Translations under genes and position numbers: made by a program | Shown: positions 1 through 22,569 of the stretch, one piece after another | Numbering within the stretch: the first letter of the stretch is position 1 | Layout of the letters: the number at the start of each line of letters is the position of its first letter | From: a virus | DNA length: 22,641 bases | Reading direction: 5' to 3' (one strand) | IMG/VR virus record: IMGVR_UViG_3300027733_000217 | Span: 1-22,641 of that record | Notes under the pieces: model-generated | The model's database searches: none | Seen by the model: the letters and a program-made list of their open reading frames with translations, nothing else | What the model was told of the DNA's origin: nothing

Positions 1-693
1 GTTATATTGACCAGGAATGTTTCCGTTTGTTTGTCCGTTATTTATTTTAATCAGAGTTCCTTTTTCAGGTCCAGCATCTATTATCCATCTAGCTTCACTT
101 ACTTCATCAGTTAATGCAAACCAAATATTTGATTGAGGTACATTATTATAAATAAATGCATCTTCATCTGCAGAAGTAATTGTTACCAAATATCCCTTCT
201 GTCCTTTGAATGTTGTTGCTAATGCTGCATCTCTAGCTACTGTGTAATATGCTCCAGTTGATACGGGTTTATAAAAGTGTCCGTTTACACCATTAAAATA
301 ATATCCCGTTGGGTTTACAGTTGCTGCTACTGAAATATTAATATCTCCCGTTATTGTTCCTGTGTTTATCTTTAATGCTGATAATGCCGTATTGATACTA
401 GCCATTGTTCCAGTTACTACCAAACGAGTTTTATTACCCGTTAAAGTAAATCCACTTGCAGCAGTTAAACCTGTTATTGTTCCTAAAGAGAATGTTGTAC
501 CGGAAGGTGGATTAACTAAACTGATTGAAGTTAGTAAAGTTGCTGTTGCACTAAATCCAGTTAATTCAAATCCACTAGCATCTTGTCCCGTTGTATTGAC
601 GGTAAATGATTTAGGGTCTGGTGCATTTACTGCTTGCCCAAACCCTAAATTCACCATTAATATTAAAAATAAGAGAGTAACTAATTTTTTCAT
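1..693 (-). CDS. Secreted protein with C-type-lectin-like domain (3' end cut off by window edge)
   Basis: The first 231 codons of a minus-strand gene are present; it starts at ATG 693 and stays open to base 1. The N-terminus (MKKLVTLLFLILMVNLGFGQ) is a Sec signal peptide of Bacteroidota type. Residues 25-125 are rich in Thr, Ser, Gly and Val and look like a beta-sandwich stretch. From about residue 138 the sequence follows the C-type lectin fold: HFYKPV start, ARDAAL helix, GYLVTITSADEDAF, then IWFALTDE, ARWI and a GPEKG turn. The rest of the domain lies outside the window. It starts 4 bases after the stop of the 555-aa secreted protein upstream, so the two are probably co-transcribed. C-type-lectin folds act as receptor- or glycan-binding modules in phages, but a signal peptide is unusual for a virion protein. 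The ligand is unknown. The domain call is by eye from motif order. Confidence 0.72.
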   Translation of the reverse strand, partial: MKKLVTLLFLILMVNLGFGQAVNAPDPKSFTVNTTGQDASGFELTGFSATATLLTSISLVNPPSGTTFSLGTITGLTAASGFTLTGNKTRLVVTGTMASINTALSALKINTGTITGDINISVAATVNPTGYYFNGVNGHFYKPVSTGAYYTVARDAALATTFKGQKGYLVTITSADEDAFIYNNVPQSNIWFALTDEVSEARWIIDAGPEKGTLIKINNGQTNGNIPGQYN

Positions 694-697
694 TTTA

Positions 698-2365
698 TTA
701 TTCTACGATTAAGTTTACTTTGTTACCACTAGCATCTACTGCATCTGAAAGAACAGTAAAGAATAAACCAGTTGTATTTTGTAAAGGTACTTTTGAAGTG
801 AACATTAATTTGTATGGAGTACCCACTTTAATCTTTGATGTTTTGTTTTGGTCTATTGAACCGAATGTTAATCTTCCGTTATTATGAGTTGAAAAGTTTG
901 TCATTGTATTACCAGTATCAAATACTACATTATCCAAAGTTAATTTAGAATCATCGTAGTTCATTATTACTTGCAATCCAGCCAAATCAGCTGCTGTTAA
1001 TGTACCAACTAATACTACGCTTGTTCCTGAAATTGAAGAAACTAAACTTAATGTTGAGTTTGCTAATTTAGCCGGCTGATATGCTATTGTTGCAAATGAT
1101 GCTACCGAATTAACTGAATTAGCTTTTACACTAATTGTACTTCCAATTGGATTAACACTCATACCAGTAACTGCTCCAGTTATTGAAGCTGGGTCAGTTG
1201 AGTTTGAGTAATCCAAATCTCCACCATATGCGAAAGCAAAATCATTTGTTTGTGTTGCTGATGTTACTTCTATAATGTTATCAGTTAAAACTCCAGTGTG
1301 CCATACATCCTTTTTACCATATAAGAAGTTGAATGAAGTTGCTGCTTTAGTTGGTATCTTAGCTTTTGCTGCTATATCAATTCCCATTACATAAGAGAAT
1401 AGATTGTATGCATCATCGTTACCAAATGTACTATTAGCAATTGTTACATTACCAATTTTCTTTTCTAATGTTGGATATTGGAAATAGTTTGTAGTACCAT
1501 TGATACCAACAGATGCGTTTTGTAAGAATGCTTTATATGCATCAGATACAGTTACAATATTATCTAAATAAGCCGTACCAATTGCTGGAGTTATTATTAC
1601 ACCAAATTTATCACCCACTTTTGGTTTTGTGAAAGAAGCGATACCAGTTGTACTAAAGTTAGCAGTTTCTATTACAGTCCCTGCCATATTAACAGTACCA
1701 TTAGTATTAAGTGGATATAGTTTTGCGGTTAAGTATTTTACCGAAGTATCTGTTGATGGGAAAGCTACTCTTACATTAAATGCTGCCAAACCACCAGTTA
1801 CAGTTCCTAAAGAAACTGCGGTACCTGTTGTTGTAATTGGTGAAATGTATGCACCACTTGCGTTATATGAATATGCTAAATCTAATTTGTGAATATCAGT
1901 ATAATCTTCTTTAGCCAATACAATATATTTTTGTGTTGCTATAATCCCATCAACACTAGCATCAGTTCTTTGTACAGTCAATTGTCCAGCATTCCAATCA
2001 GAGTTTACTGCGTAAGCCCAAGGAGATACTTGATATTGCTCATACAATGAAGTTGCTACTTTGTTGTTAGTAGTGTTTGGTGTGAAACCATAGTTACTCC
2101 AACCTGTGTAGAATGTTTGAGATGAAGTACCTTGTGAGAATGTAGTTGATACATAACTCAAAGCCTTATTATTGAATCGGTATCTTAACCAAAAATAACG
2201 GGGAGTAGTTGTTCCTTTCGCAACGGTGTACTTTATAGAAATGGTATCACCCACTTTATAAGGTGCTGCCGTTGTAATAGCTTGGTCCACAGTCAATTGT
2301 GCCTGTGCCGTAAATGATGATAGGGATATAACTAGTACCCCTAAAATTGTTAATAATCTTTTCAT
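698..2365 (-). CDS. Large secreted protein with C-terminal cohesin-like domain
   Basis: A 555-residue protein with a clear signal peptide (residues 1-22, cleavage expected after AQA). The mature part is Thr, Ser, Asn and Val rich with few charged residues, as in extracellular beta-sandwich proteins. Residues about 429-555 resemble a cohesin-type module: a LAGLQVIMNYDDSKLTL strand pair, then GRLTFGS, then a final strand with TGLFFTVLSDAVDASGN. The N-terminal part (KVGDTISIKY, then FWLRYRFNNKALSYV) may be a second related domain. It lies 1 base after the membrane-protein gene upstream and 4 bases before the lectin-like gene, suggesting one three-gene operon. Enzymatic motifs were not seen. It could be a virion or adhesion protein, or a protein displayed by the infected cell. 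The export signal is well supported; the cohesin similarity is moderate. Confidence 0.7.
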   Translation of the reverse strand: MKRLLTILGVLVISLSSFTAQAQLTVDQAITTAAPYKVGDTISIKYTVAKGTTTPRYFWLRYRFNNKALSYVSTTFSQGTSSQTFYTGWSNYGFTPNTTNNKVATSLYEQYQVSPWAYAVNSDWNAGQLTVQRTDASVDGIIATQKYIVLAKEDYTDIHKLDLAYSYNASGAYISPITTTGTAVSLGTVTGGLAAFNVRVAFPSTDTSVKYLTAKLYPLNTNGTVNMAGTVIETANFSTTGIASFTKPKVGDKFGVIITPAIGTAYLDNIVTVSDAYKAFLQNASVGINGTTNYFQYPTLEKKIGNVTIANSTFGNDDAYNLFSYVMGIDIAAKAKIPTKAATSFNFLYGKKDVWHTGVLTDNIIEVTSATQTNDFAFAYGGDLDYSNSTDPASITGAVTGMSVNPIGSTISVKANSVNSVASFATIAYQPAKLANSTLSLVSSISGTSVVLVGTLTAADLAGLQVIMNYDDSKLTLDNVVFDTGNTMTNFSTHNNGRLTFGSIDQNKTSKIKVGTPYKLMFTSKVPLQNTTGLFFTVLSDAVDASGNKVNLIVE

Positions 2366-2366
2366 A

Positions 2367-3017
2367 TTATTTTTTTCCCAATAATTTTGTTATTAGCTTA
2401 TCGGATGCTTTTTTCAATGCGTTGCTAAGAGAGGTTTGATTGAATTTTCCACCCTCATCAACTATTAACGTAGACATTGAGATTTCTGATGATGATTCTT
2501 CAACCACTATCTCTTTCTCTTTCTTTCCTTCTTTATATAGGATACCTTGCAATCTAACTACCACTTCTTCTTCTCCTTTATGGAATACTGAAATGTTGGT
2601 TTTTGTTGTAAGTACGTCCAAATAAACAATATTAACTTTTAAGTGATATTTTGCATCTTGCGAAAGGTCATATCCCTTTTCTTGGATATATTCCTCTAAG
2701 ATGTTTTTTACTCCAAATGCAAGATTACGATTTCCTGCTAATTTACCAATCTTAACTTGGTTTTCTACACCATCAACCCATACATGTTCTTCAGCAACAT
2801 ACATAATGTTACCTGGTGAATTTTTAAATGTACCATCAAATTTCCAGCTTAACTCATTAACAATTGTTCTAGTTAATTCAGTTTTACCAGATACTTCCAA
2901 TACTACCATAAATATTTGAAATGCTAATGCTAGCACTACAAATACACAAGCTAATTTAACAAATAGCAATGCTAATTGTTCTTTCCAATTTAGTACAAAC
3001 GCTTTAATGTAAGACAT
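2367..3017 (-). CDS. Membrane-anchored protein of unknown function
   Basis: 216 residues. One hydrophobic helix at about 14-38 (ALLFVKLACVFVVLALAF) follows a short N-terminal segment, so this is a signal-anchor protein with the bulk (40-216) probably in the periplasm. The soluble part alternates beta strands (YHLKVNIVYLDVL, EEEVVVRLQGILY) and ends in an amphipathic helix (LSNALKKASDKLITKLL). This broadly recalls small YajG- or CsgG-like envelope lipoprotein domains, but the resemblance is weak and no function is assigned. It is the first gene of the exported-protein operon, with a leader of about 100 bases after the terminator at 3113-3152. No TTTG-class promoter was found upstream. An AATATTTATC sequence (complement of 3133-3142, in the terminator loop) is a weak second-class promoter candidate. 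Confidence 0.6.
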   Translation of the reverse strand: MSYIKAFVLNWKEQLALLFVKLACVFVVLALAFQIFMVVLEVSGKTELTRTIVNELSWKFDGTFKNSPGNIMYVAEEHVWVDGVENQVKIGKLAGNRNLAFGVKNILEEYIQEKGYDLSQDAKYHLKVNIVYLDVLTTKTNISVFHKGEEEVVVRLQGILYKEGKKEKEIVVEESSSEISMSTLIVDEGGKFNQTSLSNALKKASDKLITKLLGKK

Positions 3018-6246: not shown

Positions 6247-6864
6247 TTATAATTTTAATTCAGTTAAACCTTTAGCATCTCCAATAGTTCCTCTAAAAAA
6301 TGAATTGAATGCTAAACTTATTCTTGTATCCTCATTTTTAACAGGTGGTACTCTATGATAAAGACCAGATGGAAATAATAATAAATCATATGTTTCTATT
6401 GTAAACGAACATTCTGGAGTGTTAAAATCGTTTCTTTTTTTTGTAAGAATTTCATATTGATTTTGAGAATCGGGTTTATTAAAAATAATTTCATCATATT
6501 TTTTATTTGCACTCATATAAAATACACCACTAATAATACTATTTGGATGTGTATGTGCATGATGAAATTCACCTTTTTTTGTATAGTTAATCCAAGATTG
6601 AGTTAATTCTAAATTACATGTATTAAAAGATGGACAATATATCTTTTCAAAATATGAATCTAAACAGCTTTGACAAAACTTAAATATATCTTTCATAGAT
6701 TCATCGTTTAAGATGTAGTTATCTTTGGTAGTATAATTTCCATAATTTTTATTAATTTCATTTTTTATTTCATCAAAAAAAGTTATTTCAATATTATTGA
6801 ATTTCCTTGGGAATTTGTATTTTATTACTGGGGTTGGAAATATAGTATATAATTTACCTTCCAT
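6247..6864 (-). CDS. 2OG-Fe(II) oxygenase, phage type
   Basis: 205 residues with the signature of the phage-rich 2OG-Fe(II) oxygenase group (PF13759-like): QSWINYTKKGEFHHAHTHP (89-107), SGVFYM, then LLLFPSGLYHRVPP (161-174) and TRISLAFN (180-187). Likely iron ligands are His104 or His106 and distal His170; Arg181 should bind 2-oxoglutarate. The usual HxD is read here as HxH. The substrate (protein, nucleic acid or small molecule) is unknown; such genes are common in T4-like marine and freshwater phages. It is the most divergent of three neighbouring oxygenases and overlaps the second by one base. Confidence 0.8.
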   Translation of the reverse strand: MEGKLYTIFPTPVIKYKFPRKFNNIEITFFDEIKNEINKNYGNYTTKDNYILNDESMKDIFKFCQSCLDSYFEKIYCPSFNTCNLELTQSWINYTKKGEFHHAHTHPNSIISGVFYMSANKKYDEIIFNKPDSQNQYEILTKKRNDFNTPECSFTIETYDLLLFPSGLYHRVPPVKNEDTRISLAFNSFFRGTIGDAKGLTELKL

Positions 6865-7469
6865 TATTTATGCTTTAAAGAAAAATTTGTTGTCAATACC
6901 CATCTACGTTCATTTGAATTATTTGGTTCTGTTCTATGTCTTAACCAACCAGGAAATATTAAAACATCACCAGTTTTTGCAGGTACTTTTTTCCACATCC
7001 ACAATTCTTCATTTTTATTATGTAATGTAAATCCTCTATAATGTTCCAGTGGATTTTTAAATTCAATATACCCCCCGTTTTCAGGAAGATTTAAATAAGT
7101 GGTTGCAACTAATATAGTAGACCCATGATGATGCTCTTTTGTATAACCAGTATTATCATGATAATTTACCCAAGATTTTATAAAATTATAATCATACGCC
7201 TCAAATAATTCCCATTCTTTTTTTATAATATGATTTGCTATTGGAACTAACCACTTATAAAAATCTTCAAATTCTGGTTGAATATGTGGATTATTTGGAT
7301 TGCTGACTGAACTTGATGCGTTACCATTTTCTAAATATGATAATCCTTTACTATCTTCTATTAGTTTTTGACATATCGGTTCTAACTTATCCCAATTAAA
7401 ATTATTGTAATGGGTTTTAATAATCAATGGTTCAAACGGATTTACATCTATAAGTTTTGGTGTATTCAT
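6864..7469 (-). CDS. 2OG-Fe(II) oxygenase, phage type (tandem copy 2)
   Basis: 201 residues. KSWVNYHDNTGYTKEHHHGS (98-117), VATTYLNLPENGGYIEFKNP (121-140) and GDVLIFPGWLRHRTEP (167-182) give the iron ligands (His113 or His115, and His178), with Arg188/Arg189 for 2-oxoglutarate. The N-terminal half (PKLIDVNPFEPLIIKTHY) is clearly homologous to the next gene upstream, whose protein opens AKLIDITPFGPTIIKVHY, so the pair arose by tandem duplication. The substrate is unknown. Confidence 0.8.
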   Translation of the reverse strand: MNTPKLIDVNPFEPLIIKTHYNNFNWDKLEPICQKLIEDSKGLSYLENGNASSSVSNPNNPHIQPEFEDFYKWLVPIANHIIKKEWELFEAYDYNFIKSWVNYHDNTGYTKEHHHGSTILVATTYLNLPENGGYIEFKNPLEHYRGFTLHNKNEELWMWKKVPAKTGDVLIFPGWLRHRTEPNNSNERRWVLTTNFSLKHK

Positions 7470-7471
7470 AA

Positions 7472-8092
7472 TTATTTAATTCCTTTATGTTTACCGTCCG
7501 ATAATATATTGGTAGTAAGTACCCATCTATCTAAATTAGATTTATTATATTCCGTTCTATGTTTTAACCAACCTGGAAATAAAAACACATCACCTGTTTC
7601 AGCTGGAACAGTATGGTAATCTCCCACATATTCGGGTTTTCTAGAATGAAAAGATTTAAGATATTCTAATGGGTCTTTAAATTGAATATATCCCGATTTT
7701 TCGGGTAATTGTAAATATGCAGTTGCAACCATTACAGATGAACCATGACTATGTTCGGTAGTTACTCCACCGTTTGGATGTACATTAACCCAAGAATTCC
7801 CATAATAATATCCAAATTCTTTTAAAAGTTTCCATTCTTCTAAAAGAATATGATTAACTATTGGAGTTAGCCATTCGTAGAATTTTTTAAAAGCGGGATT
7901 CTTATGTGGTTGATTTTGCCAATTATAAACTGAACTACTACCTCCTCCAATTTCTAATTGAGCGTTTTCAGGAGATTTTATAATCATCTCATCACATATT
8001 GGTTTTAATTCACTCCAATTAAATCCATCATAATGAACTTTAATAATTGTAGGACCAAATGGAGTTATATCTATAAGTTTTGCTGTACTCAT
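7472..8092 (-). CDS. 2OG-Fe(II) oxygenase, phage type (tandem copy 1)
   Basis: 206 residues and a paralogue of the following gene. NSWVNVHPNGGVTTEHSHGS (99-118), ATAYLQLPEKSGYIQFKDP and GDVFLFPGWLKHRTEY (167-182) contain the ligands His114 or His116 and His178, with Arg189 for 2-oxoglutarate. It lies 3 bases after the UV-endonuclease gene and 2 bases before copy 2. The pair differs most around residues 40-65 and 145-162, so the substrates may have diverged. Confidence 0.8.
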   Translation of the reverse strand: MSTAKLIDITPFGPTIIKVHYDGFNWSELKPICDEMIIKSPENAQLEIGGGSSSVYNWQNQPHKNPAFKKFYEWLTPIVNHILLEEWKLLKEFGYYYGNSWVNVHPNGGVTTEHSHGSSVMVATAYLQLPEKSGYIQFKDPLEYLKSFHSRKPEYVGDYHTVPAETGDVFLFPGWLKHRTEYNKSNLDRWVLTTNILSDGKHKGIK

Positions 8093-16993: not shown

Positions 16994-18382
16994 TTAAATA
17001 CCAATATCTTTCAATCTTAATATCTCTTTTTCAATATGGCGATTATATCCGTTCCATTTAATATTTTCCAACATCCATTTACGATACCATACAGGAATTG
17101 ATTTAATATCCCTACCTTTGTATTTTCCAAATGTCATTAATATAGGACCAACTACATTAGCCATATCTTGTGGTGATGGCTTGCCTTCTATATGTAATCC
17201 AATCTCATCTAAAGGAATGCCTGTTAATTGTTTCTTACCCTCTCCATATAGTTTCCAATCAAATGGAAAATGTTCTTCATCTTTTTTGAAATATAACTCC
17301 TCTACCTTACCAAAACGAGGAACACTACCTACAAAATCAATAACCAATCCATCTTTTTTATTAGGATGAATACGAGTAACCCTCCCTACAAACTGATACC
17401 ACCAACTCAATGATGCGGTGGGTCTGCCTGTTATTATGCAATCTAATTCTGGATGGTCAAACCCTACTGATAATATAGTAACTTGAACAACTATCCTCAA
17501 ACGTAGGTTCTTAAAATCATCAATAATCCGCTCTCTATCACTATCAGCCATACCACTATATACTGCTTCACAACTTGGTAACTTTGTGGATAATTCAATT
17601 GCCGCATCAACGGATGGTACTGCTACTAATATTGATTTTCTATTGGGCATATCCGCAATTTTCTTCATTATCTTACCACCAATGTCTTGTTGCTTATATG
17701 CTCGTTGTATTGAATCATCCGTATAATCAGCATATGATGAATTGTAAACCAACCCACCTGTTTCAAAATCGTAAGCTTCATATACTAAAGGTGACCAATA
17801 CCCATTTTGTACCATATCTTCGATTTGAGCCACATGTATTACCTCTTTGAAGTAATTCCCCTTTTTAGATTTTGAAGTCAGCATGACCAGCTTAGAATAA
17901 GACCTACCCACATCGTTAAGGTTTGTTTGTAACTTCAATGGAGTTGCGGTTAATCCTAATACGTGAGTGATTTTAGCTGCAGTTAAGAACCTTCGCATCA
18001 TCCCACCTGGCTCTCTTGGGAATCTATCACACTCATCTATAATAACCTTTCGAATACCTAATGTATGAAATTTATGTGCTATATTAACAATAGAACCAAT
18101 CGTAGCATATGTAACCTCACCTATTTCTTTTTCACCCATTGCCGCACTATATATGGATGCTTTACCACCTAAATTGATAAATTTGTTATAGTTTTGCTCT
18201 AATAACTCTTTTGATGGCTGAATCACCAATAACTTTTCACCCAATTGATGCGCAATATCAGCTATCACAATAGACTTACCAAATGCGGTAGGGGCTACTA
18301 TAATAGATGGAACTGATTTCTTTTGTTGAAAAAATTCAACACCTTTTTTAACAGGTTCTACCTGATTTTCTCTTAGTTTCAA
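16994..18382 (-). CDS. UvsW-like SF2 helicase with an ExoX-type C-terminal domain
   Basis: 462 residues from a TTG start. SF2 motifs in order (numbered from this start): Q-like NQVEPVKKG, motif I APTAFGKS (30-37), motif II IIDECD (114-119), motif III GLTATP (143-148), motif V TILSVGFDHPELDCII, motif VI YQFVGRVTRIHP. This is the layout of T4 UvsW, which rewinds and branch-migrates DNA in replication and recombination. After the helicase core, MTFGKYKGRDIKSIPVWYRK with WMLEN forms the small domain found at the C-terminus of exonuclease X and related proteins. The frame is open to 18433, but a promoter (18403-18434) covers that stretch; the TTG at 18382 lies 20 bases after the promoter box, as at the other genes of this class, and directly precedes the conserved domain. 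Confidence 0.82.
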   Translation of the reverse strand: MKLRENQVEPVKKGVEFFQQKKSVPSIIVAPTAFGKSIVIADIAHQLGEKLLVIQPSKELLEQNYNKFINLGGKASIYSAAMGEKEIGEVTYATIGSIVNIAHKFHTLGIRKVIIDECDRFPREPGGMMRRFLTAAKITHVLGLTATPLKLQTNLNDVGRSYSKLVMLTSKSKKGNYFKEVIHVAQIEDMVQNGYWSPLVYEAYDFETGGLVYNSSYADYTDDSIQRAYKQQDIGGKIMKKIADMPNRKSILVAVPSVDAAIELSTKLPSCEAVYSGMADSDRERIIDDFKNLRLRIVVQVTILSVGFDHPELDCIITGRPTASLSWWYQFVGRVTRIHPNKKDGLVIDFVGSVPRFGKVEELYFKKDEEHFPFDWKLYGEGKKQLTGIPLDEIGLHIEGKPSPQDMANVVGPILMTFGKYKGRDIKSIPVWYRKWMLENIKWNGYNRHIEKEILRLKDIGI

Positions 18383-18402
18383 ATTTTTACAATTTACAAT
18401 TG

Positions 18403-18434
18403 TAAAGATACAAAAAATACCTGATATATCCAAA
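18403..18434 (-). promoter_or_regulatory. Host-like promoter for the helicase
   Basis: Minus strand TTTG (18434-18431), 20-base spacer ending TTTTTG, then TATCTTTA (18410-18403). It faces away from the receptor promoter, with 20 bases between the two -33 boxes. Confidence 0.72.
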
Positions 18435-18454: not shown

Positions 18455-18486
18455 TTTGGTAATGTGGATATTATTTCGTATCTTTG
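18455..18486 (+). promoter_or_regulatory. Host-like promoter upstream of the TonB-dependent receptor
   Basis: TTTGGTAA at 18455-18462, 20-base spacer ending ATTTCG, then TATCTTTG at 18479-18486. It matches the minus-strand promoters of this class almost word for word, which ties the receptor gene to the phage's own transcription programme. Confidence 0.75.
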
Positions 18487-18492
18487 TGAAAC

Positions 18493-18645
18493 ATTTTAAC
18501 AAATCATTATAGTTATTGCGGTAATGCTTATGAGTAGAGAAAAAAATATTATATTATATACATATAGAAAAAATTCAGCCATTTTAGCAAACGGAATGGT
18601 GGGATGACCAAGTAGGTGTGGATTAATTCGCACCTTTTTTATTTT
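18493..18645 (+). ncRNA. Candidate attenuated leader RNA of the receptor gene
   Basis: From the predicted transcription start to the end of the terminator is about 150 bases. It holds a possible 27-codon leader frame (ATG 18524, stop TGA 18605-18607), a small hairpin (ccatt about 18580, aatgg about 18596), and the terminator at 18614-18645. No known riboswitch class is recognised. It could also be an independent small RNA. Confidence 0.45.
18614..18645 (+). terminator. Intrinsic terminator in front of the receptor gene
   Basis: Seven-bp stem aggtgtg (18614-18620) with cgcacct (18629-18635), eight-base loop, followed by tttttt and attttaaa. It lies between the only promoter seen and the receptor ATG at 18677. 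Confidence 0.75.
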
Positions 18646-18676
18646 AAACAATTAAACAAACAAAACAAAAAACAGC

Positions 18677-21600
18677 ATGAAAAATCTGAAAAAACTGATG
18701 TTACTTACGATTATGTTCGCATTATCCTTCGTAGCAAAAGCACAAGAGACTACATCTGAAATCCAAGGAAATGTTTTGGCAGGTAAGAATGGTTTAGCGG
18801 GCGCAACCGTAACAGCTATTCATCAACCAACAGGAACGAAGTACAAAACAAGTGCTCGTGCCGATGGAAGATACAACCTACCAAACCTTAAGATTGGAGG
18901 ACCTTATGTAGTAACAGTATCATTTGTTGGATTCAAAGAAGAATCGCAAAGTGATATTCAATTAGTCTTAGGACAAACCTATAAAGCTAATTTTAGTTTA
19001 GTAGAGAAATCAACTTCATTGAAAGAAGTTGTTGTGAGAGCTAACCAAAGTAAAGTATTTAACAATGCTAGAACTGGTACGCAAGAGAACTTTAATAGAA
19101 CACAATTGACAGGTTTACCTTCAACTTCTCGTTCTTATAAGGATATCTTAAAATTAGTTCCTACCAACAATAACTTTTCATTTGGTGGTATCAGTTCACA
19201 ATTAAACAACATCACAGTAGATGGAGCTAACTTTAATAACTCTTTCGGATTGGCTAGTGATATTGGTGGACAAACTGGGGCAACGGCCATCTCTTTAGAT
19301 GCTATTGACCAAATTCAAGTAAACACTTCTCCTTTTGATGTACGTCAGGGTGGTTTCGCAGGTGGTGCAGTGAATTCGGTAACTCGTAGTGGTACAAATA
19401 AATCTTTTGGTTCTGTTTATCAATATTTTAAGAATAAAGATTTACAGGGTTACAAAGTAGGTGATGTTGAATTACCTAAGCAAGATTACACTTATGATTT
19501 AAAAGGTTTCACAGTAGGTGGAGCATTAGTTAAAAATAAGTTATTCTATTTTATTAATGGTGAGCAAGAAAGTAGAGAAGCTCCAGCAACATTATGGACA
19601 GCTAACGATGCTACTCATCCAGCTAATGGTACAACAGTATCTAACGCTAATGGGGCTCAGTTAGATGCTTTAAAACAATTCTTAATTACTAAGTATCAAT
19701 ACAATCCCGGTGAATATCAGGGGTATTCTTACAAATCACAATCAAAGAGATTAACTGCTAAGATTGATTGGAACATTAATACTAACAATACATTCACATT
19801 GAAGTATAGTTATTTAAAATCTTCTAACCAAATTCCTCCATCTAATAGTGGTTCAGTTAATAGCTCTTATGGTAGAACACCTGGTCAGTACGCATTACCT
19901 TTTAATGGTGCTGGTTATGAAATTAATAACAACGCTAACGTATTTACTGCTGAGTTAAACACTCGTTTCTCAAATAGTATGAACAACAAATTACAAGTTG
20001 GTTATACTCAATTAAGAGATTATAGAAGTGCATTAAGTAGCGCTAATTTCCCATTAGTAGATATCTTAGATGGTAACGGACAACCTTTCACATCTTTTGG
20101 ATATGAGCAATATACTTTTGGTAACAAATTAAATACCGATGTATATCAGTTCAATGATATCCTTTCTATCTATAAAGGAAAACATGAGATTACATTAGGT
20201 ACTCAAAATTCTTACAAAGAATATTCAAATGGGTTCTCACCTTCTTATCAGGGTGTTTATCGTTTCAATAGCTTAGCTGATTTCTACGCATCTGCGGCAG
20301 GAACTAAAGCAGCTGCTAGATACGATTTATCATACACATTAGGTGGTGGTGAATTTCCATTAGTAGGACCTAAAGATTTAGAGTTAGGTGTATTCATTCA
20401 AGACAAATATAGAGCAACTGATAAATTAACTCTTACCTATGGTTTGAGAGCTGATTATACTCAATTCTATAATACATTCTTATACAACCCAGTTGTAGAT
20501 ACATTAACTCAATTCTATAATGGTACTCATGCTAATACAGGTTTAGCACCAAACAAAGCAGTTCAATTCTCTCCAAGAGCAGGATTTAACTATGATGTAT
20601 TAGGTGACCAAACACTACAAGTAAGAGGTGGTACTGGTTTATTCTCTGGCCCTCCTCCATTTGTTTGGATTAGTAACCAAGCTTCAAATAGCGGTATGGC
20701 ATTATTTGGAAGTATCTCAGCAGGTACTACTTATATGTTTGACCCAAATGTTGATAAGTATAGACCATCTGCAACAGCGGCATTATCTAAATCTTATTCA
20801 ATAAATGTAACTGACCCAAGCTACAAATTCCCACAAGTATGGAAATCAACTTTAGCGGTTGATAAGAAAATTGCAGGTGGATTTGTTATAACTGCTGAAG
20901 GTACATATACAAAGAATATTAACGCTTCAGTATTTCAAAATATCGCTTTACCAACAACAGGTTTAATTACCTTAAGTGATGGTAGAATTAGATATCCAAA
21001 GACTTCAGTATATCCTATTGGTGGTTCAGCATTAGCATCAGCTAGTAACCCATCAATCGGTAACGCTATCTATATGACTAACGCTAACGCGGGTTATGTA
21101 TTGACAGGTACTTTACAAATTCAAAAGGTATCTAAGAATTTAGTAGCTACATTAGCTTACACTAGACAAGAAGCTAAAGATGCTACAATCAATGGTTCTA
21201 CCGCAGGAACAATGTGGGGAGCTAAGCCGGTTGTAGGTGGTGCTAATAATTTTGAAGTAGGTTATTCAAACAACTACTTACCTCATAGAATCGTAGGTTC
21301 TTTGGTTTATGGTAGAGAGTTAATTAAGAATACAAGAACATCAGTAGGTGTTATCTATGAAGGTTCTCCTAATAACGCTCCTACATCAACTTCATTCATC
21401 TACAATGGTGATTTGAATGGTGATGGTTACTCAAATGATTTAATGTTCATCCCTAAAGATGCATCTCAAATCAAATTAGTAAACGCAGCAGCGGTAAGTG
21501 GAGTAGCTGATACTCGTACACAAACTGAATTATGGAATCAATTAGATGCTTTCATTTCAGGCAATCCTTACTTATCTAAACATAGAGGAGATTTTGCAGA

Positions 21601-21940
21601 AAGACAAGCAATGGTATTACCTTGGGTTAATAGATTCGATTTAAACTTCACACAAGATGTTTATTTAAATGTTAAAGGAAACAAACACACTTTAAGATTT
21701 ACAGCTGATATCTATAACTTCACAAACTTATTAAATAATGAGTGGGGTACATATCAATTACCAACAACAACAGCTCCTTTAACTTTCACTAAGTTAGATA
21801 CTGATGGTAAGACTCCATTATTCTCATTCCCTTATTTAGATGGTAAAAACAAAGTTCCATATACTAATTCATTCAAAAATGATGTAAGTGGTATTTCTCG
21901 TTACACTATCCAATTAGGAGTTAGATATTTGTTTAACTAA
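18677..21940 (+). CDS. TonB-dependent outer-membrane receptor, Oar/SusC-like
   Basis: 1087 residues, full length for the family. Signal peptide 1-22 (LSFVAKA then Gln). Residues 27-110 are a carboxypeptidase-regulatory-like beta-sandwich (SEIQGNVLAGKNGLAGATVT, DGRYNLPNL, VSFVGFKEE). LKEVVVRAN (115-123) is the probable TonB box. The plug follows at about 130-250 (SYKDILKLVP, NNITVDGANFNNSFG, VNTSPFDVRQGGFAGGAVNS), the last of these typical of the Oar-type group. The rest is a 22-strand-type barrel with alternating aromatic strands, ending YTIQLGVRYLFN. Such receptors take up large ligands through the outer membrane with TonB energy; the ligand here is unknown. Nothing is truncated. It is the only long plus-strand gene, with phage-type promoter and terminators on both sides, so it appears to be a real phage gene acquired from a Bacteroidota host. 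Confidence 0.93.
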   Translation: MKNLKKLMLLTIMFALSFVAKAQETTSEIQGNVLAGKNGLAGATVTAIHQPTGTKYKTSARADGRYNLPNLKIGGPYVVTVSFVGFKEESQSDIQLVLGQTYKANFSLVEKSTSLKEVVVRANQSKVFNNARTGTQENFNRTQLTGLPSTSRSYKDILKLVPTNNNFSFGGISSQLNNITVDGANFNNSFGLASDIGGQTGATAISLDAIDQIQVNTSPFDVRQGGFAGGAVNSVTRSGTNKSFGSVYQYFKNKDLQGYKVGDVELPKQDYTYDLKGFTVGGALVKNKLFYFINGEQESREAPATLWTANDATHPANGTTVSNANGAQLDALKQFLITKYQYNPGEYQGYSYKSQSKRLTAKIDWNINTNNTFTLKYSYLKSSNQIPPSNSGSVNSSYGRTPGQYALPFNGAGYEINNNANVFTAELNTRFSNSMNNKLQVGYTQLRDYRSALSSANFPLVDILDGNGQPFTSFGYEQYTFGNKLNTDVYQFNDILSIYKGKHEITLGTQNSYKEYSNGFSPSYQGVYRFNSLADFYASAAGTKAAARYDLSYTLGGGEFPLVGPKDLELGVFIQDKYRATDKLTLTYGLRADYTQFYNTFLYNPVVDTLTQFYNGTHANTGLAPNKAVQFSPRAGFNYDVLGDQTLQVRGGTGLFSGPPPFVWISNQASNSGMALFGSISAGTTYMFDPNVDKYRPSATAALSKSYSINVTDPSYKFPQVWKSTLAVDKKIAGGFVITAEGTYTKNINASVFQNIALPTTGLITLSDGRIRYPKTSVYPIGGSALASASNPSIGNAIYMTNANAGYVLTGTLQIQKVSKNLVATLAYTRQEAKDATINGSTAGTMWGAKPVVGGANNFEVGYSNNYLPHRIVGSLVYGRELIKNTRTSVGVIYEGSPNNAPTSTSFIYNGDLNGDGYSNDLMFIPKDASQIKLVNAAAVSGVADTRTQTELWNQLDAFISGNPYLSKHRGDFAERQAMVLPWVNRFDLNFTQDVYLNVKGNKHTLRFTADIYNFTNLLNNEWGTYQLPTTTAPLTFTKLDTDGKTPLFSFPYLDGKNKVPYTNSFKNDVSGISRYTIQLGVRYLFN

Positions 21941-22251: not shown

Positions 22252-22569
22252 TTAATTATCAAACTTTTCATCAAACATTTTACGAAATTTACCATGAGGT
22301 TTTTCTCTATACATTACCCTATCTCTATTGATAACTATTGGTCTTAATTTATTATAATCTTCTTTATTGAAAATTAAAATAACCTTATCTCCTTTAACCG
22401 TTACACTTAATGGTTTTGGATAAAATGGAAATTGATGATTTCTAAATTGAGGTCTTTGCTGAAAGTTTCCTCTCATTTCAACGTTACCTTCGTGTCTAAA
22501 TGGAGCTTGTTGTGAAAATGCGGCAATAGATGTAATCATCAGTAAGGCTGCGAATAATACTTTTTTCAT
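22252..22569 (-). CDS. Small secreted protein of unknown function
   Basis: 105 residues from the ATG at 22569. MKKVLFAALLMITSIAAFSQ is a typical Bacteroidota signal peptide. The mature protein starts Gln- and Arg-rich (GNVEMRGNFQQRPQFRNHQF), has one strand pair (PLSVTVKGDKVILIFNKEDY) and a basic tail. No family is recognised. The frame is open further upstream to 22617, but that extension precedes the signal peptide and contains the promoter-like box at 22584-22593, so the later ATG is preferred. Confidence 0.65.
   Translation of the reverse strand: MKKVLFAALLMITSIAAFSQQAPFRHEGNVEMRGNFQQRPQFRNHQFPFYPKPLSVTVKGDKVILIFNKEDYNKLRPIVINRDRVMYREKPHGKFRKMFDEKFDN

Follow-up and report, generated by a model that had tools for sequence, protein, structure and literature searches.

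The window analysed here is one entire IMG/VR record of 22,641 bp. It encodes a TonB-dependent receptor (TBDR) that lies beside a UvsW-like DNA helicase gene, is preceded by a promoter and a structured leader, and is followed by a gene for a small exported protein (Table 1).

Table 1. Features of the receptor locus (positions in the window)
Feature	Position	Strand	Basis
UvsW-like DNA helicase bounding the slot	16994..18433	-	phrog_16, E 7e-65; Pfam ResIII and Helicase_C
Bacteroidota-type promoter TTG-N20-TATCTTTG (motif TTG-N20-TATxTTTG)	18456..18486	+	motif recurrence
Small leader ORF, 27 aa, MLMSREKNIILYTYRKNSAILANGMVG	18524..18607	+	ATG ORF recurrence; predicted
Terminator-like hairpin and U-run in the TBDR leader	18611..18641	+	single-sequence fold
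Oar-like TonB-dependent receptor (TBDR), 1087 aa	18677..21940	+	ORF list, Pfam, AlphaFold2 model, fold matches
TBDR signal peptide, residues 1-22, MKNLKKLMLLTIMFALSFVAKA	18677..18742	+	sequence reading; N-terminal helix low-confidence in model
TBDR CarboxypepD_reg domain, residues 29-108	18761..19000	+	PF13620, E 3e-16
TBDR TonB box LKEVVV, residues 115-120	19019..19036	+	sequence reading; aligned in phage and bacterial copies
TBDR plug, about residues 133-240	19073..19396	+	PF07715 at residues 163-232; model
TBDR outer-membrane beta-barrel, residues 241-1087	19397..21937	+	PF25183, E 1.5e-41; model
Small exported protein, next gene after the TBDR	22252..22569	-	no Pfam family; homologue in L014

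The receptor ORF runs uninterrupted from ATG to stop. Pfam searches matched the barrel to OMP_b-brl_4 (residues 235-1020, 143 bits against a cut-off of 30) and the plug to its family (26.0 bits against a cut-off of 23.9), and the TonB-box residues L115, V118 and V120 are near-invariant across 36 homologues. An AlphaFold2 model, likewise built from 36 homologues, contained both plug and barrel (mean pLDDT 84, pTM 0.80), with approximately 22-23 barrel strands as judged by secondary structure. A fold search with this model returned TonB-dependent transporters as the best matches, headed by FusA (E 2.6e-39, 11% identity), while a sequence search of the PDB found no relatives at E 0.01. The preliminary description had presented the protein as an intact 1087-residue receptor of the Oar/SusC kind. 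Its intactness is borne out by the unbroken ORF together with the signal peptide, CarboxypepD_reg domain, TonB box, plug and barrel, and the PF25183 match upholds the Oar-like part of the assignment. The SusC-like part had to be given up: since NCBIfam gave no match to the SusC/RagA signature and no SusD-like gene was found among the ORFs adjoining the receptor in the window, we class the protein as Oar-like rather than SusC-like. In domain order, length, TonB box and model it matches the Oar-like TBDRs of Bacteroidota, which combine PF25183 with CarboxypepD_reg and Plug; unlike these, it is encoded by a phage, belongs to phage-only clades and is preceded by a phage leader not seen on the bacterial copies.

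Scanning IMG/VR revealed 20 further contigs, from 18 metagenome numbers, that encode the receptor at 67-97% identity. Adding the window itself and two contigs found via the helicase gives a set of 23 contigs with what we call the type-1 TBDR. A second receptor, type 2, which is 38% identical to type 1, was found on 38 additional phage contigs, so that at least 61 phage contigs carry one type or the other. The contiguous, T4-like contig G002 (273,997 bp) has a type-1 TBDR at 28,749-32,009 and also encodes gp23 (E 8e-75, at 230 kb), a tail sheath, the large terminase, a family-B DNA polymerase (PolB) and SbcCD; 304 of its 324 called ORFs lie on the strand opposite to the receptor. Across the collection, gp23 scored above the Pfam cut-off on seven TBDR contigs, and the T4-type structural genes lie outside the 22.6-kb window itself. 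No PHROGs family matched the receptor.

These contigs bear directly on whether a bacterial gene might have been joined to a phage contig during assembly, or picked up recently and without function. Taken by itself, the window is a fragment of 22.6 kb, and the G+C content of its TBDR is 34.5% compared to 30% in the phage core, both of which would fit such an origin. However, the GC3 of the gene (0.21) falls inside the range of the phage genes, the gene has its own recurrent leader, and the phage copies form phage-only clades under purifying selection. The 23 type-1 contigs share the junction with the helicase, and a chimera is excluded because the 20 other contigs, at 67-97% identity, have this same junction in every locus examined. 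Recurrence across contigs, combined with a position inside a 274-kb phage contig, likewise rules out a bacterial contig or a prophage boundary, and purifying selection (dN/dS) rules out a decayed or passenger gene. An artefactual or passenger origin is thus exceedingly improbable, and the 23 type-1 contigs, with gp23, sheath, terminase and PolB on G002, identify the receptor as a true T4-like phage gene.

Additional genes were noticed in the same phages. Three tandem proteins of ~200 aa, encoded on the minus strand of the window at 6247-8092, resemble 2OG-Fe(II) oxygenases (motifs by eye). Exported proteins that recur in TBDR phages are encoded at 1-3017 of the window (minus strand), L102:7348-11976 and L152:19180-23277; of these, one resembles C-type lectins and, weakly, cohesins (762 aa in G002), a second (~555 aa) matches no Pfam family, and a third has ~216 aa.

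We then compared the position of the gene between phages. As originally described for the window, the receptor adjoins a UvsW-like helicase, and this holds, in divergent orientation, for all type-1 loci examined, so that orthologues occupy the same place in related phages. In these genomes the slot that holds the receptor is flanked by the helicase on one side and a Zn-ribbon gene on the other, and the L014 homologue of the small exported protein lies just past the Zn-ribbon gene that closes it. The type-2 TBDR occupies the helicase slot in five of the 38 contigs, and in others, from related phages, it lies elsewhere; near one type-2 TBDR we observed a second, distinct TBDR-like protein with a PF14905 barrel and a Plug domain, cut by the contig end (L039:3-1778, minus strand). 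Other slots hold other genes. L251 and L253 have a TBDR of a third type, ~905 aa long and with a barrel of family PF00593 (checked on the helicase side only), and a full OmpA is present in the slot of a single contig of 266 kb that also encodes gp23 (G019/L045). The slot of L249, L250 and L254 contains a family-2 glycosyltransferase together with a phosphoesterase whose match to LpxH stays below threshold (54 bits against a cut-off of 134), a pair that stands in place of an outer-membrane protein at L249:8360-9768 (minus strand). Remoter relatives of the helicase have different genes at this position.

The receptor had also been reported to share the promoter type of the phage genes. This agrees with the motif in the window and with its recurrence in 22 of 26 related phage loci, where it precedes the start codon of the TBDR by about 220-300 nt. 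Promoter, small ATG ORF, terminator-like hairpin with U-run and start codon follow one another in this order in the leader. A small ATG ORF of 25-60 codons was present in the leader of all 27 slot loci examined, a count to be read with the ease with which short ORFs arise by chance in such leaders. A hairpin defined by strict rules was found upstream of the TBDR gene in 28 of 39 phage sequences compared to 1 of 99 bacterial ones. The leader of the window (18487-18676) is of a near-constant length, mostly 190-205 nt, that is shared by L002-L021, L142, L150, L158, L168 and L176. Rfam gave no match in the leader, and RNAalifold recovered only three pairs from the leader alignment because MAFFT had put the stems out of register, whereas the single-sequence folds are clear. 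In type-2 phages with a co-directional upstream gene, the hairpin may just end transcription of that gene. In the helicase slot, where the genes diverge, it is required by no called gene, so that attenuation is a real possibility there, as is a small gene from which transcription reads through into the TBDR.

To place the phage receptors among bacterial ones, we examined a tree of 139 proteins, in which they formed three supported phage-only clades nested among bacterial genes: A, which includes the receptor of the window, and B, which together make up type 1, and C, which corresponds to type 2. The nearest bacterial relatives of clades A and B are freshwater Chitinophagaceae/Sediminibacterium, the receptor of the window being 66-71% identical to freshwater Chitinophagaceae copies; for clade C they reached 59-60% in a phylum-wide sample as against no more than 51% in the Chitinophagaceae sample. 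Oar-type proteins are a small minority of the TBDRs of Chitinophagaceae, and since the searches were seeded with this subfamily, its repeated use is not interpreted here. The full-length trees hinted at separate captures of clades A and B, a scenario that was dropped because an AU test on the full-length protein does not reject A and B as one clade (p 0.112) and because splitting the protein exposed a mosaic. For the N-terminal and plug part a single A+B clade is rejected (p 0.020) and A groups with bacteria (96/94), while for the C-terminal half of the barrel A and B form a single phage clade (98/96). The simplest reading is a single phage lineage in which the plug half has undergone recombination with a copy from bacteria, and the mosaic of clade A indeed looks as if its plug had been renewed from a host.

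Comparison with the flanking genes showed exchange between phages as well. The closest relatives of the window in core genes, L022 and L044 (Hsp20 99%, PhoH 97%, helicase 98-99%), have receptors only 67-68% identical to its own, yet the receptor of L023 is 97% identical although this phage is more distant in its core genes (PhoH 91%, membrane protein 69%). TBDR alleles thus differ between phages whose flanking genes are 97-99% identical, a pattern in which swapping between close phages is visible.

Median pairwise dN/dS of the receptor, calculated by pooling non-independent pairs, was 0.23 for clade A, 0.14 for B and 0.16 for C, with 0.17 for the bacterial sister clade. Among the structured parts, the plug was under the tightest constraint in clades B and C, with values of 0.045 and 0.070, respectively, compared to 0.103 in bacteria; clade A, with three sequences, gave 0.16. 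Conservation of the plug and TonB box is similar to that in bacteria or stronger. Using a loop assignment that is approximate because it was taken from the secondary structure of the model, the long loops of clades B and C were not faster than those of bacteria (0.17-0.19 compared to 0.21), nor were the differences between A and B concentrated in loops. Hypervariable outer loops, the mark expected of a receptor arms race, were looked for in the phage TBDRs and were absent, the phage loops evolving no faster than the bacterial ones. With phage clades nested among bacterial genes and dN/dS between 0.14 and 0.23, the receptor combines the bacterial origin and the retention under selection that characterize auxiliary metabolic genes. 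We have little doubt that large T4-like Bacteroidota phages carry it as a standing gene, of bacterial origin, residing in an exchangeable slot with a phage-type promoter and leader, and kept by selection.

What the phage gains from this gene can be approached through the same data. We consider it most likely that the receptor serves the infected cell as a functional importer, though we hold to this only tentatively. The infecting phage would transcribe the TBDR gene, perhaps governed by read-through at the leader hairpin; the Sec and BAM machinery of the host would export and fold the protein, and host TonB would power it. A scarce nutrient, such as an iron chelate, a vitamin or a peptide, could then keep entering via the phage receptor, which would compensate for import when the infected cell's own synthesis of envelope proteins is shut off, making it an outer-membrane counterpart of cyanophage PstS. 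The intact domains, the plugged-barrel model, the transporter fold matches and dN/dS values like those of bacteria all speak for import, and we favour it because of the conserved plug and TonB box, the bacteria-like loops and the host-like plug of clade A. Also counted in its favour is an iron-sulfur theme in some type-2 phages, where the TBDR lies near IscU-, IscA- and ferredoxin-like genes; at L152:8747-15822 and L160:8430-15262 the type-2 TBDR stands among genes that read as IscU, IscA (L152), GroEL and ferredoxin (L152). Against import, OmpA, which is no importer of the TBDR kind, fills the slot of one related phage, the swapping of alleles between close phages is not required by nutrient uptake alone, and the plug may be conserved from the mere need for a closed barrel. 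The bacterial neighbourhoods, with an aminotransferase-like gene adjacent to type 1, and phosphoglucose isomerase and a fasciclin-domain gene adjacent to type 2, were uninformative on the substrate.

Both TBDRs and OmpA are familiar as receptors for phages. A phage version of such an abundant outer-membrane protein might therefore dilute, replace or mask the receptor used by the phage itself or by its competitors, resulting in superinfection exclusion or a rewritten cell surface. What favours this reading is that the alternative contents of the slot (TBDR types 1, 2 and 3, OmpA, and the glycosyltransferase with the LpxH-like phosphoesterase) are all plausibly envelope-related and that alleles turn over between phages with near-identical flanks; in addition, the C-terminal barrel half of type 1, which bears many of the outer loops, keeps a phage-only ancestry. 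Nevertheless, the outer loops have not diversified above the bacterial level, blocking a receptor by means of a 3.3-kb transporter whose plug and TonB box are conserved is expensive, and a short lytic infection does not remove the receptors already in place, so that we rate exclusion as rather unlikely and place it after import.

Two further uses rank behind these. The phage may supply an abundant structural outer-membrane protein, either an Oar-like TBDR or OmpA, that keeps the envelope intact during a long infection; the OmpA of G019 would suit this role, as would the large genomes, since contigs of 266-274 kb suggest long infections. There is, however, no sign that loss of a TBDR weakens the envelope, and a structural role does not need strong conservation of the TonB box, which leaves envelope maintenance improbable. 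More improbable still is that vesicles or debris bearing the TBDR absorb competing phages or hand the receptor to resistant neighbours. A complete receptor and its exchange between phages would fit, the rest being speculation, but if debris bore the receptor of the phage itself, its progeny would be trapped too.

Finally, we asked how the receptor compares with known phage genes. No paper describing phage-encoded TBDRs was found in the literature searched, which covered few subscription journals, and in a 2026 review of jumbo phages the word 'receptor' occurs once, unrelated to phage-encoded TBDRs. There are two database precedents. UniProt A0A8D9FQQ5, a single viral entry, is named 'TonB-dependent receptor SusC [uncultured marine phage]', and gp64 of the cultured Bacteroides phage BS-TP3 (PQ571276.1:53880-57062, L312) is annotated as a hypothetical protein, yet is a full TBDR with CarboxypepD_reg, Plug and a PF00593 barrel, adjoined by a thioredoxin-domain gene. 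BS-TP3 may be Mu-like, given the presence of a Mor-domain protein. Both are TBDR-type proteins in phage records, as in the window, but they are distant in sequence or have another barrel family (PF00593 in BS-TP3), their function is undescribed, and their phages are unrelated to that of the window as far as seen. Many human-fecal 'Bacteriophage sp.' fragments in GenBank also encode TBDRs; these were excluded as evidence because they are short and unannotated and may be bacterial DNA.

Functional parallels come from other systems. The pstS gene of cyanophages, an auxiliary metabolic gene of T4-like phages whose product binds phosphate, is likewise host-derived, kept by selection in a lytic-type phage and a possible aid to uptake, whereas the gene described here encodes an integral outer-membrane receptor of putative metabolic effect. 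The Lc porin, encoded by the temperate lambdoid phage PA-2, displaces the host's receptor porin in the outer membrane; it is also a barrel of host type, but a porin in a temperate lambdoid phage rather than a TonB-dependent receptor in large T4-like phages. The Llp protein of T5 is a small phage protein that blocks a host TBDR. Similarly, Cor of phi80 and N15 inactivates FhuA (PMC11436027). As here, a TonB-dependent receptor is involved, but Cor and Llp are small blockers of the host receptor whereas the protein of the window is the receptor itself. We regard the gene as a host-derived auxiliary gene, in this case a complete TonB-dependent receptor in an exchangeable slot.

Taken together, our results strongly support the conclusion that large T4-like viruses of lake-dwelling Bacteroidota carry a complete TBDR as a conserved, actively exchanged gene. 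With it, these phages are apparently able to rewrite the surface of infected cells. It is possible, if somewhat doubtful, that this T4-like lineage reserves a slot prone to recombination for outer-membrane proteins of bacteria (OmpA and several TBDR types), which are swapped among phages, with the plug half renewed from hosts and a switch formed by leader ORF and terminator, which would give the infected cell a receptor surface of the phage's choosing. TBDRs are a main nutrient gate of Bacteroidota. A conserved phage TBDR in at least 61 contigs offers a direct handle on what phages gain from remodelling the outer membrane, whether feeding the infected cell or shutting out rivals. In addition, whole surface receptors are moved between phages and, apparently, hosts, which could spread both phage sensitivity and nutrient niches.
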